Positions 3,103-6,598 of a stretch of 36,040 nt of DNA are shown here, piece by piece. The stretch lies in assembly GCF_019599295.1 (NCBI RefSeq), contig NZ_JAIEWN010000005.1, forward strand, positions 98,821-134,860. Reading direction: 5' to 3'. Each line of letters begins with the position of its first letter. Position 1 is the stretch's first letter. The position numbers and the translations under genes were made by a program. Below the pieces are notes generated by a model. The model saw only the letters and a program-made list of their open reading frames with translations, did not search any database and had not been told where the DNA came from. Origin of the DNA: Oscillochloris sp. ZM17-4. GTDB lineage: Bacteria > Chloroflexota > Chloroflexia > Chloroflexales > Chloroflexaceae.

Positions 3103-3170
3103 CTGAATGCTGAATGTTGAATGTTAAATGCTGAATGCCCGGCATTCAACATTCAACATTCAACATTCAA
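3103..3170. repeat. Heptad inverted repeat (unit GAATGTT/GAATGCT)
   Basis: About five 7-bp units on the left (3103-3139) and four on the right (3143-3170) are reverse complements with two mismatches, and can form a long hairpin with a CGG loop. The element fills the whole gap between crtB and the DUF2085 gene. It supplies the TGA stop of crtB (3167-3169) and ends two bases before the next start codon. Confidence 0.85.
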
Positions 3171-4159
3171 AATTTCTGAACCTCCAGCCAGATCCGTGGC
3201 AGGAGGACGAGCTTATCGCGCAGGGTGAGGTGGGCGCGCCGGGTAAATGAATCGTAGCCGTGAGCCGCGAGATTGTCAAGGATGCCGCGGTAGAACTTGG
3301 CGGCGGCCGCCACCCCGAGGCGGCTATCGGGCGGGAGCAGGCCGATCCCGGGCCAGCTCTCATCGTAGAGGCGGCGGGCGCGCTCCACCTCGAAGCGCAT
3401 CAGGCTGCGGTAGCGCTCGTCGTAGACGTGGTTGAGGATATCCTCGGCCGTCAGCCCGAATCGCTCCAGGTCCTCCTGGGGCAGGTAGACCCGCCCGCGC
3501 CGGGCGTCCTCGCCGACATCGCGCAGGATGTTGGTCATCTGGAGGGCGACGCCGATCTTGATCGCGTAGGGCGCGGCGCCGGGGGCCGCCCCGGTGACGC
3601 CCATGCTCAGCAGGCCCACCACCGAGGCCACGCGGTAGCAGTAGAGCCACAGGTCGGCGAAGGTGGCGTAGCGGTGCATGGTCAGATCCATCGCCATCCC
3701 GGCCAGCAGCTCGTCCACCAGGGCCGGCGGCAGGTTGTAGGTCGCCCGCGTATCGTGCCAGGCGAGGAGCACCGGGTTATCGGAGAGCGGGTGCGCGGCC
3801 CGGGCCTGATGCACCCACTCGGCCAGGGCGCGGGTCGCATCGCCGCTGGCCTGGTCGACCGTATCGTCGGTGACGCGGCAGAAGGCGTAGAAGGCGCGCA
3901 CGGCCCGGCGCTTCTCAGCCGGCAGGAACTGCGTGCTGAGGAAGAAGCTCTTAGAGCTCTCGCGGATGATCTGCTCGCAGTGGCGGTAGGCCTCAGCGAT
4001 GCGGTGGGGGGAGTGCGGCGGGCGCTCGTCGGAGCCGACCTGCGGGGGCAGCTCCGTCAGGTGAAAGAGCAGCGCGAGCTGCTCCTCGGCGGGGAGCGGC
4101 TGCGATATGGAGGCGGCACCGGCGCCCAGTGCCAGCGATGAGAGTGATTTCAGCGACAC
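3167..4159 (-). CDS. crtB: Phytoene synthase (squalene/phytoene synthase family)
   Basis: Condenses two geranylgeranyl diphosphates to phytoene, the first committed step of carotenoid synthesis. Both Asp-rich diphosphate-binding motifs are present: DDTVD at residues 98-102 and DVGED at 214-218, the latter followed by the family's RGRVYLPQEDL. SKSFFLS near residue 70 and FYAFCRVTDD near 90-99 are also typical. The 330-residue length is normal, with a slightly long N-terminus. The start is GTG at 4159, backed by AAAGGAG at 4166-4172 on the minus strand. The stop codon is the first TGA of the adjacent heptad repeat. Squalene synthase is the main alternative; the CarH-like gene upstream favours a carotenoid role. 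Confidence 0.88.
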   Translation of the reverse strand: MSLKSLSSLALGAGAASISQPLPAEEQLALLFHLTELPPQVGSDERPPHSPHRIAEAYRHCEQIIRESSKSFFLSTQFLPAEKRRAVRAFYAFCRVTDDTVDQASGDATRALAEWVHQARAAHPLSDNPVLLAWHDTRATYNLPPALVDELLAGMAMDLTMHRYATFADLWLYCYRVASVVGLLSMGVTGAAPGAAPYAIKIGVALQMTNILRDVGEDARRGRVYLPQEDLERFGLTAEDILNHVYDERYRSLMRFEVERARRLYDESWPGIGLLPPDSRLGVAAAAKFYRGILDNLAAHGYDSFTRRAHLTLRDKLVLLPRIWLEVQKF

Positions 4160-4405
4160 ACGGCGCTCCTTTATGTCTCGTCAGGACACATGGGAACTAC
4201 ACCCCGGCGACAGTATGTGCGCCACAGGAGAAGCGGGCGAGGGCGGCAGTGTGAGTTGTCTATGGTGCGGAGAAGCGTGGGAGCGGCGGCGATGGGGCCT
4301 TCAGCCCCTATGCACGATTAAGAACTCTTGGGAAACAACTTCTCTATCTTAATAATACGTGAATAGTAGCAGACTAGCAAACCGCATACGGGGAGATAAC
4401 ACAGC
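4160..4405 (-). promoter_or_regulatory. crtB leader region, no gene
   Basis: This stretch holds the crtB ribosome-binding site and no recognisable gene. On the minus strand TCGTGCATAG near 4308-4317 matches 8 of 10 bases of the TTGTGCATTA repeat in the CarH-like promoter, which might be a weak operator. I found no convincing -35/-10 pair, so the promoter is not located. Confidence 0.3.
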
Positions 4406-4447
4406 GACGCGGGGCGCGGGCGCCCCAGCGTGCCCGCGCCCCGCGTC
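4406..4447 (-). terminator. GC-rich terminator hairpin after the CarH-like gene
   Basis: A perfect 16-bp stem (4406-4421 with 4432-4447) with a 10-base loop lies 15 bases past the stop of the leftward regulator gene. No T-run follows on the minus strand, so it may be a GC-only or Rho-assisted terminator. It would separate the regulator from crtB. Confidence 0.6.
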
Positions 4448-4461
4448 TGGATCTGCGGTTG

Positions 4462-5406
4462 CTAGCGCCCGCTGAGAATATCAGCGACCGAGTCCACAAC
4501 CTCCTGGGCGTCGCGCCCGAGGAAGGTGCCGGGCATCTTCTGGGTGAGCAGCGGGTTGAGGTTGAAGGCCCGCCCGCCGTAGCCGAATGCCGGGAAGGGC
4601 GGGTCCATCGCCTGGATGTATCGCCCGACCTCCATGAGCTGGGTTGCGGTGTCGGTCGTCGACGCGGCCATACAGACAATATCGGGCTGGAGCTGATGCA
4701 CGGTGTCGAGCAGATCGCGCATCGGCACCTCGGCGCCGAGGTAGATCACCTGCCAGCCGTGGCGCACCAGGAAGACGGCGATCATCAGGGCGCCCAGGTC
4801 GTGCTGCTCGCCGGGCGCGCAGCCGATCATCACCAGGCCGCGGCCGTCGGTGATATTGTAGGTGTTGAAGAGGCCCGAGAGCTTGCGCCGGATAAACTGT
4901 GTGGCGAAGTGCTCTGCGGTGACGCTGATCTTGCCGGCGTGCCACTGCTCGCCGATCTCGATCATCGTCGGCTGTACCAGCTTGAGGAAGACATCCTCCA
5001 GCGGATAGATCGCAAACGCCTCGCCGAGGATCTGCTCGGCGCGCGTGGCGTCGAAGTCGACCAGGGCGGCGTACAGCCGGCTGTTCAGCCGATCCCATGT
5101 GTGCGGCTCGGTGTCGACCGCCGTGTTCAGCCAGCCCAGGTTCGACTCGGCGCCGTCCGTCATCAGGGCGATCGCCTGGCTGATCGTCAGCCCTTCTGCC
5201 GTCCGATCCCGCAGCCAGCGGATCGTCGCAATGTCGCGCTCCGAGTAGAGACGGTGTCCACCCTCCGTGCGCTGCGGGCGCGGCACGCCATAGCGGCGCT
5301 CCCAGGCTCGAAATGTGTCGGCCGGGACGCCTGTCTCCTGCGCCACAGCCTTTGTGTTGTACCGTGGCTTGTCGGAGAATTGCGATAAGAAGTGCTGCTG
5401 TGCCAT
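4462..5406 (-). CDS. CarH/LitR-like MerR regulator with B12-binding photoreceptor domain
   Basis: Probably a light-responsive repressor of carotenoid genes using adenosylcobalamin. The order matches CarH: a MerR winged helix-turn-helix (about 14-82, with AWERRYGVP and GGHRLYSERD), a four-helix bundle (about 100-185) and a Rossmann B12-binding domain (about 188-310). Residues diagnostic of photosensory CarH are present: Trp155 followed nine residues later by Glu165-His166, and Glu200-x-His202-x-x-Gly205, whose His should ligate cobalt. In known CarH proteins the dark B12-bound tetramer binds DNA and light breaks it apart. The gene lies upstream of crtB in the same direction with a terminator between. 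A strong promoter with repeats at 5545-5587 suggests autoregulation. Light response is inferred from motifs. Confidence 0.88.
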   Translation of the reverse strand: MAQQHFLSQFSDKPRYNTKAVAQETGVPADTFRAWERRYGVPRPQRTEGGHRLYSERDIATIRWLRDRTAEGLTISQAIALMTDGAESNLGWLNTAVDTEPHTWDRLNSRLYAALVDFDATRAEQILGEAFAIYPLEDVFLKLVQPTMIEIGEQWHAGKISVTAEHFATQFIRRKLSGLFNTYNITDGRGLVMIGCAPGEQHDLGALMIAVFLVRHGWQVIYLGAEVPMRDLLDTVHQLQPDIVCMAASTTDTATQLMEVGRYIQAMDPPFPAFGYGGRAFNLNPLLTQKMPGTFLGRDAQEVVDSVADILSGR

Positions 5407-5544
5407 GCCCGTTCGCCTTCTCAGCCTGCGCTGAACGCTGCGTTGCGAATCTCGCTCTTAGACTATAGATTTCATAAAATATGGCGGTGTAAAGAACCGC
5501 CTGTACGCTTGTACTATAAGAAAACATGTTACAATTGCCTTTAC

Positions 5545-5587
5545 ATTGTAGCATAATGCACAAACCGTGTCAATGTAATGCACAACC
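5545..5587 (-). promoter_or_regulatory. Promoter and probable operator of the CarH-like gene
   Basis: On the minus strand TTGACA (5568-5573) and TACAAT (5545-5550) stand exactly 17 bases apart, a near-consensus promoter facing the regulator gene. Two copies of TTGTGCATTA (plus-strand 5554-5564 and 5576-5586) are spaced 22 bp apart, two helical turns, on either side of the -35 box. Known CarH operators are direct repeats overlapping the -35 element, so this arrangement fits autorepression. The rest of 5407-5641 holds no gene. Confidence 0.7.
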
Positions 5588-5641: not shown

Positions 5642-6598
5642 ATGCGCGCACTTATCACTGGCATCAACGGGTTCGTCGGCAGCCACCTCGCCGAGCACCT
5701 GCTCCAGCAAAGCGGCTGGGAGATCTGGGGGCTCTCGCGATCTCCCACCATCGCCCTGGCCTCGCTCCAGGGCCGGGTGACGCTGCTTCAGGCAAGCTTG
5801 TCTGACCCGCAGTCGACGAGCGAGGCGATCATCGTCGCCCAGCCAGATGTGATCTTCCACCTGGCGGGGCAGCCCTTTGTGCCCGAGTCGTTCCGCGACC
5901 CAGCGGCCACGCTGGCGGCCAACACCCTGGGGGCGCTGCATATCTTCTTGGCTCTGATCGCCCAGCGCATGGGCACGCGGGTGCTCGTGGTCGGGACAAA
6001 CGAGGAGTACGGGCAGATCCATGCGGAGGATCTCCCGGTGCGCGAGGATGCCCCGCTGCGGCCCACCAGCCCCTACGGGGTGAGCAAGGTCGCCCAGAGC
6101 ATGCTCGCCCTTCAGTACCACCTCAGCCACCGGCTCGACATCGTGCGCGTGCGCCCCTTCACCCACATCGGCCCACGCCAGAACGAGCGATTCGTCACCG
6201 CCGCCTTCGCCCGCCAGATCGCCCGCATCGAGCTCGGGCTTCAGCCTGCGTCGATGCAGGTCGGCAACCTGAGCGCATGCCGCGACTTCACCGACGTGCG
6301 CGATATCGTGCGGGCCTACGCCCTGCTTGCGCAGCACGGCGAGGCCGGCGAGGTCTATAATGTCGGCTCTGGCCAGGCAGTGATGATCCGCGACCTGCTC
6401 GACACCCTCCTCGCCGAGAGCACGGCCGTGATCGAGATCCGGCCCGACCCGAGCCTGATGCGCCCGATCGATGTCCCCCTCATCGTCTGCGATGCGGGGA
6501 AGATCCGCGCCCGCACCGGGTGGGAGCCGTCGATCCCGATCGTGCAGACCCTGCGCGACATCCTCGCCTACTGGCGTCAGGCTGAGCGCACGATGTGA
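5642..6598 (+). CDS. NAD(P)-dependent sugar epimerase/dehydratase, GDP-4-keto-6-deoxymannose reductase type
   Basis: An extended short-chain dehydrogenase of 318 residues. The nucleotide-binding GxxGxxG motif is at 7-13 (GINGFVG) and the catalytic Tyr145-x3-Lys149 lies in SPYGVSK. The active-site stretch VVGTNEEYG (117-124) and RPFTHIGPRQ near 175 resemble GDP-4-dehydro-6-deoxy-D-mannose reductases, which make GDP-rhamnose or related sugars. GDP-mannose 4,6-dehydratase or another epimerase remains possible. The ATG at 5642 is the natural family start. A broken nucleotidyltransferase of the same likely pathway follows 180 bases later. Confidence 0.8.
   Translation: MRALITGINGFVGSHLAEHLLQQSGWEIWGLSRSPTIALASLQGRVTLLQASLSDPQSTSEAIIVAQPDVIFHLAGQPFVPESFRDPAATLAANTLGALHIFLALIAQRMGTRVLVVGTNEEYGQIHAEDLPVREDAPLRPTSPYGVSKVAQSMLALQYHLSHRLDIVRVRPFTHIGPRQNERFVTAAFARQIARIELGLQPASMQVGNLSACRDFTDVRDIVRAYALLAQHGEAGEVYNVGSGQAVMIRDLLDTLLAESTAVIEIRPDPSLMRPIDVPLIVCDAGKIRARTGWEPSIPIVQTLRDILAYWRQAERTM

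Follow-up and report, generated by a model that had tools for sequence, protein, structure and literature searches.

A predicted, conserved CarH-type switch upstream of carH and crtB in phototrophic Chloroflexales

We analyzed a 36,040-nucleotide stretch of DNA (the window) and found a gene whose product is, with a probability of about 0.8, a CarH-type B12 photoreceptor that represses its own sigma-A-type promoter, such that light would raise expression of carH and some expression of the neighboring crtB. By analogy with studied CarH proteins, this protein would bind B12, repress in the dark, and be released by light. In the dark, an adenosylcobalamin-bound oligomer would occupy three 11-bp units in tandem, with the −35 box at the center, and would thereby shut out RNA polymerase. 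In the light, the Co-C bond would break, the oligomer would fall apart, and the open promoter would raise carH and, by readthrough or cotranscription, some crtB. The genome carries two reaction-center (Photo_RC) genes, and the named organisms closest to it are Chloroflexales bacterium ZM16-3 and Oscillochloris assemblies, so the host is very likely an anoxygenic phototroph of this group. According to an excerpt of PMC6739363, knowledge of CarH and LitR comes mainly from nonphototrophic bacteria. Among the open-licence full texts listed, most of them judged by title, we saw none that treats a CarH operator of the Chloroflexota; the one related item was a passage on CarH in Herpetosiphon. CarH itself is a known kind of regulator, and the sequence comparisons below argue for a real, well-conserved CarH-type switch in phototrophic Chloroflexales, for which dark repression and light release are predicted from the studied relatives.

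The carH product retains the domains and sensing residues of CarH

The regulator is encoded as follows.
4462..5406, minus strand: carH, 314 aa, with a MerR-type DNA-binding domain, a B12-binding four-helix bundle, and a Rossmann B12 domain

The product matches the Pfam domains MerR_1, B12-binding_2, and B12-binding, in that order, and the PDB entries that it matches best are those of Thermus CarH (3whp and 5c8d; E about 6e-34). In the alignment, the sensing residues W155-H156, E165-H166 (Wx9EH), and E200-x-H202-x-x-G205 correspond to Thermus CarH W131, H132, E141, H142, E175, H177, and G180; the Thermus numbering, here and for the interface positions below, is presumed, with the sensing residues anchored on the motif. 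The MerR-type domain contains an RxWERRY recognition helix, and the four-helix bundle contains Wx9EH with His directly after Trp, both of which a passage in PMC9304148 gives as features of class I LitR/CarH. The B12 motif D/ExHx2G/P-x41-SxT/V-x22-27-GG is present as ExHxxG, 43 residues (versus 41 in the definition), STT, 25 residues, and GG. Against the NCBIfam CarH equivalog, the protein scores 178.5 bits, below the cutoff of 400, with the next model at 54; we infer that this cutoff was set for a narrower group.

A search for CarH returned 32 loci, from which L038 was excluded (match to the DNA-binding part only); 29 loci at about 70% identity or more are treated as close orthologues. The query and all 29 share W-H, E-H, E-x-H, and RxWERRY without variation, and the remainder of the B12 motif fits the spacing pattern in all 29 except L028, L031, and the short L032.

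The protein is thus like Thermus thermophilus CarH in domain order, RxWERRY, Trp-His, Wx9EH, and the B12 motif, but unlike it at the tetramer interfaces, where the Arg-Asp salt-bridge pair and one of the two glycines are not kept (R176 is Q201, D201 is E226, and G160 is N184; only G192 is retained, as G217). Because these three residues are replaced, the oligomer may differ from that of Thermus. Many myxobacterial CarH proteins have these interface features, with an acidic-Arg pair for Arg-Asp and one Gly often replaced by Pro (in a portion of PMC9304148). The altered interface would suit a protein that binds the operator and reports adenosylcobalamin supply or redox state, with light release weak or irrelevant in a dim-light organism. 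We consider this reading unlikely: none of the 29 close orthologues departs from Trp-His, Wx9EH, or the lower-axial His, the parts associated with photolysis in the Thermus protein.

The carH promoter contains three in-register units of a predicted operator

Upstream of carH, the following features were identified.
5557..5584, minus strand: predicted CarH-type operator, TGTGCA-N5-TTGACA-N5-TGTGCA, three in-register 11-bp units
5568..5573, minus strand: −35 element TTGACA, also the middle operator unit
5545..5550, minus strand: −10 element TACAAT, with a 17-bp spacer and TG in front
5407..5540, minus strand: leader of about 130 nt from the promoter to the carH start, with a terminator-like hairpin at 5483-5501
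5642..6598, plus strand: divergent gene sharing the intergenic region with carH, an NAD-dependent epimerase by eye

The original prediction had described an operator-like autoregulatory promoter with a consensus −35 element flanked by TTGTGCATTA repeats 22 bp apart, next to a gene keeping the light-sensing residues Trp-x9-Glu-His and Glu-x-His-x-x-Gly. The residues are kept, as detailed above, and both repeats are present on the minus strand, at 5576-5585 and 5554-5563, exactly 22 bp apart. It overlooked that 22 bp is 2 × 11, with the −35 box serving as a third unit in the same register. At up to 1 mismatch, TTGTGCATTA has 3 matches in the window (0.30 expected), and the 6.69-Mb genome contains no second such pair. 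When the 235-bp intergenic region was shuffled 2,000 times, one shuffle produced an exact 10-mer repeat at 22 bp, and 3 produced a three-unit tandem score of 12 of 12. The promoter itself, TTGACA-17-TACAAT with TG before the −10 element, matches the consensus at 11 of 12 positions.

Both the register and the overlap with the −35 element fit the plan of a CarH operator, for which passages in two papers give the consensus nAnnTnnACAn (PMC8156234) and, in Thermus, three tandem 11-bp repeats, one containing the −35 element (PMC9304148). The middle TTGACA is a full unit, and each outer TGTGCA is one base off; since the outer units read TnnGCA rather than the TnnACA of Thermus thermophilus, they are pseudo-repeats by the strict rule. 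Myxobacterial CarH/CarA operators are similar in lying over promoter elements and in that mixtures of full and pseudo-repeats are bound, as with a mapped Sorangium operator of one full and two pseudo-repeats (same paper, in part). Comparison across relatives, set out below, strongly supports a CarH-type protein whose own promoter carries a conserved operator.

The whole leader (5407..5540) folds no better than shuffles. Rfam gave no known RNA above threshold in the leader or the carH-crtB gap (two matches were subthreshold), and the plasmids searched with the carH promoter gave no match. The divergent gene also adjoins carH in most relatives. At 5528-5557 on the plus strand, a weak promoter-like GTTACA-18-CATAAT overlaps the operator and is directed at the gene at 5642; CarH might affect that gene too.

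The predicted operator is conserved at carH and tied to its presence

The exact operator was found upstream of all 28 testable close orthologues, 92 to 380 bp before the start codon; the remaining one, L033, has only 17 bp upstream. The apparent absence of a site at L007 was rejected, as its TTGACG unit at 380 bp had been missed when TTGACA was demanded. Upstream of carH in L035 (53% identity) and L037 (Halobacillus, 35%), the exact operator was not found. In 27 nonredundant promoters (the 28 loci plus the window, near-duplicates dropped), the 28-bp site carried on average 1.65 bits of information per column, versus 0.22 in the preceding 60 bp; 17 core columns of the site equal 2.00 bits by construction because sites were picked by pattern. 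The 18 columns after the operator, −10 element included, held 1.09 bits per column, and the −35 to −10 spacer was 17 bp in all 27. The site kept by these close relatives points to a putative light switch.

Across 82 genomes of the order, the operator occurred at up to 1 mismatch 81 times in 51 genomes. The reversed motif gave 0 sites, and a permuted motif that retained the TTGAC core gave 1, with 1 more read backwards. Judged by coordinates, carH is the gene immediately downstream at 48 of the 81 sites. The window's own family contributes 36 of these (including G022, where a contig end truncates carH to a fragment), and family f4, where the carH products share 53 to 58% identity, contributes 12; most of these 48 hosts have reaction-center genes. 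Each of the six genus members has one operator per genome at this threshold. Within the own family, the operator is present in 36/36 genomes with a close carH and in 1/5 without (G003, G004, G020, G039, and G038, the last with a 53% copy; Fisher P = 5e-5, uncorrected for kinship).

The repeats might instead belong to another DNA-binding protein or be a conserved strong promoter, a reading that we judge very improbable. It could draw on the operator-like copies before genes with no clear pigment link (MFS and MarR, below) and on G004, where two copies occur and no close carH was found in an assembly that is 85% complete. It is opposed by the exact 11-bp register, by conservation of outer units that lie outside the promoter consensus, by the tie between site and carH, and by the almost empty permuted control.

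Outside the own family, the picture was more varied. Family f4, which we take to be the Roseiflexaceae, has 25 genomes with a 49-58% carH, 12 with the operator there at up to 1 mismatch and 13 without. Loci were also scored more loosely, by the T, R, C, and A of each of three units within 500 bp upstream (maximum 12). Scores of 10 to 12 were obtained in 8/9 f4 carH loci examined (the sole 10 at L169 is 453 bp upstream), 11 to 12 in 3/3 f3 loci (L153, L154, and L167, partly in shifted register), and 10 in L158 (G038). None of the four carH loci of f2, presumably the family of Herpetosiphon, has an operator within 500 bp (L151, L152, L165, and L166; best, 8 to 9 of 12). A passage in PMC6210107 describes a Herpetosiphon with CarH beside phytoene synthase as constitutively pigmented, so a neighboring carH need not bring light induction, a point in favor of a supply or redox sensor. 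But as the four f2 loci lack the operator, the Herpetosiphon case would not be the same circuit, and the absence fits constitutive pigment. We retain a light-responsive CarH as the preferred reading, against which the pseudo-repeat outer units, the changed interface residues, the NCBIfam score below cutoff, and the f4 carH loci without a site also count.

crtB follows carH across a gap with a stable hairpin

Downstream of carH, three features bear on whether its promoter reaches crtB.
3167..4159, minus strand: crtB, probable phytoene synthase (Pfam SQS_PSY)
4380..4464, minus strand: very stable G+C-rich hairpin region, 85 nt, −50.6 kcal/mol, z −3.9
4352..4380, minus strand: weak promoter-like TTGCTA-17-TATTAT in the carH-crtB gap, 9/12, a consensus match only

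In the whole genome, SQS_PSY is matched only by the crtB product; its best NCBIfam scores, 259.6 for cyanobacterial CrtB (cutoff, 550) and 234.5 for HpnD (cutoff, 278.6), are below cutoff. This probable phytoene synthase gene lies next to carH, on the same strand, starting 302 nt after the carH stop and past the hairpin, a possible transcription barrier before crtB. A similar sequence also follows carH in the nearest relative, L007.

In 26 of the 29 close orthologues, a same-strand crtB follows carH, with gaps of 29 to 67 nt in 4 (L008, L010, L011, and L013), 124 to 127 nt in 5, 206 to 768 nt in 16, and 1,454 nt in L009. Cotranscription is likely where the gap is 29 to 67 nt, and joint control of carH and crtB may be the ancestral state. 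No crtB match was found downstream in L028 (about 1.2 kb available) or L033 (about 5 kb), and in L029 the contig ends at once; in the more distant L035 (53%), crtB is on the other strand. Excerpts of PMC9304148 describe carH as often near carotenoid genes in myxobacteria, a likeness to this locus. There, in the Cystobacterineae, the operator drives one large operon of most carotenoid genes and carH; here, in contrast, the site precedes carH, crtB comes next, and no other known carotenoid gene follows.

The dependence of crtB on the carH promoter in this strain is the least certain part of the proposal. It has a substantial competitor, somewhat short of an even chance, in which CarH does operate a circuit here, but one confined to its own gene, and crtB is transcribed from its own promoter without light control. 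The 302-nt gap, with its −50.6 kcal/mol fold and promoter-like site, would fit such an arrangement, as would the lack of a three-unit TnnRCA site in the gap in the window and 26 relatives and the single operator in each of the six genus members. The short gaps in 4/26 relatives and the same-strand crtB in 26/29 orthologues argue for joint control. Since the operator occurs once, at carH, and the gap holds a hairpin and no operator, light control of crtB in this strain is only plausible. The predicted light-induced carotenoid synthesis is supported only in part: the conserved crtB position and operators before polyprenyl synthase genes in relatives favor it, and the single exact operator, the hairpin, the crtI-family loci without a site (below), and the constitutively pigmented Herpetosiphon count against it.

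Operator copies at other genes suggest a regulon in the family

In this genome, the exact operator occurs once, at carH, accompanied by 13 sites at 2 to 3 mismatches (2 in the reversed control). A second strong operator was considered and rejected. Of the 13, only the MFS promoter (G000:C106:4698) was compared within the genus, the rest being judged by eye; it keeps TGTGCA-N5-TTGACA in 6/6 genomes, one base off in one. No two-unit site was found at any of 20 loci of the crtI family in the genus (13 of which exceed the family cutoff), no convincing three-unit site at the genus polyprenyl synthase and GTP cyclohydrolase promoters, and no tandem score above 10/12 in seven stretches of reaction-center regions of the family. 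In two genus members (L171 and L214), a two-unit TTGACA-N5-TGTGCA precedes a sigma-factor gene; the stretch from this genome (L213) gave no sigma-factor match.

Three of the weaker sites deserve mention in their own right. L040 (G000:C1:455338-455365) is a 2-mismatch operator-like site over a −35/−10-like promoter before a TetR-like gene. L041 and L045, 3-mismatch sites, both read TGTGCAT...GTTAAC...TTTCGTGTA and have no pigment genes nearby by eye; their motif is possibly a different conserved element.

Among relatives, 26 of the 33 sites not at carH were examined, with neighbors identified by tblastn with proteins from the same loci and named by Pfam (sigma factor, polyprenyl synthase, MFS, GTP cyclohydrolase, PTPS, MarR, and the pterin-cluster dehydrogenase) or, for the dehydrogenase of the sigma-factor cluster, by eye. 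Nine (7 genera) lie at varied combinations of polyprenyl synthase, short-chain dehydrogenase, and sigma-70-type factor, seven (5 genera) precede an MFS transporter, three (2 genera) lie at the pterin genes PTPS and GTP cyclohydrolase I, two (1 genus) precede a MarR gene, and five had no match. These copies make a CarH regulon likely in the family, judging from the sites, with the exact site in this genome at carH only. The expectation that operator copies would mark other carotenoid genes fails in this genome, to the extent of the search, and stands in relatives if polyprenyl synthase is counted as a carotenoid-precursor gene.

At L113, L116, L117, L124, L127, L128, and L130, the gene for a sigma-70-type factor follows the CarH-type operator directly or after the dehydrogenase or polyprenyl synthase; the L113 product spans regions 1.2 to 4 (Pfam).

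The pterin genes, which carry the operator in two genera, recall Pseudomonas class II LitR, under which GTP cyclohydrolase I and a short-chain dehydrogenase are light induced. In contrast to the CarH proposed here, class II LitR is considered incapable of binding B12, and that of P. mendocina answers to a LOV protein (all from parts of PMC9758184).

A second CarH-family protein occurs beside reaction-center genes

In 13 f4 genomes and G050 (L217-L230), we observed a second CarH-family protein with 33 to 39% identity to the window CarH (tblastn). Its gene is divergent beside reaction-center genes in 14 of the 16 loci examined (not L231 or L232). In three aligned copies, the EH of Wx9EH is E-R or E-Q, RxWERRY is absent, and ExH is kept. 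Upstream of the gene, 8/14 loci match 15 to 16 of 16 tandem 11-bp TnnRCA positions, which 0/200 shuffles reach; L230 matches 14/16 (4/200 shuffles), and the other five are no better than chance.

These loci allow a wider, tentative proposal, which we hold to be rather doubtful as a whole: that CarH heads a light-stress regulon and that, in Roseiflexus-like genomes, a second, CarA-like copy directly regulates the reaction center. The regulon would comprise carH, polyprenyl synthase with the dehydrogenase and sigma-70-type factor, tetrahydropterin genes, and an MFS transporter. Through the sigma factor, one of the predicted operator targets in relatives, light sensed via B12 would lead to broad changes in transcription. 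The CarA-like copy would have moved beside reaction-center genes with its own 11-bp tandem sites, making a B12-family repressor a direct regulator of a photosynthetic reaction center. The reaction-center genes of the present host are themselves a difference from Thermus thermophilus. To our knowledge, AerR of purple bacteria has no MerR-type DNA-binding domain. It is alike as a B12-binding protein in photosystem gene control but unlike in acting through the repressor CrtJ (from a portion of PMC5362033). In Chloroflexus, photosynthesis genes are scattered, and their regulation is called unclear in a passage of PMC9316378.

Apart from these loci, L003:49-2163 (G000:C97) encodes a protein of ~700 aa with a CarH-type B12 domain in which Trp-His, Wx9EH, and ExHxxG are intact; DICT and GAF matches are weak and below cutoff, and no DNA-binding domain was found in it. 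Its motifs make it a possible further B12 light sensor. More long frames with a CarH-like B12 domain turned up in the CarH search of the order's genomes.
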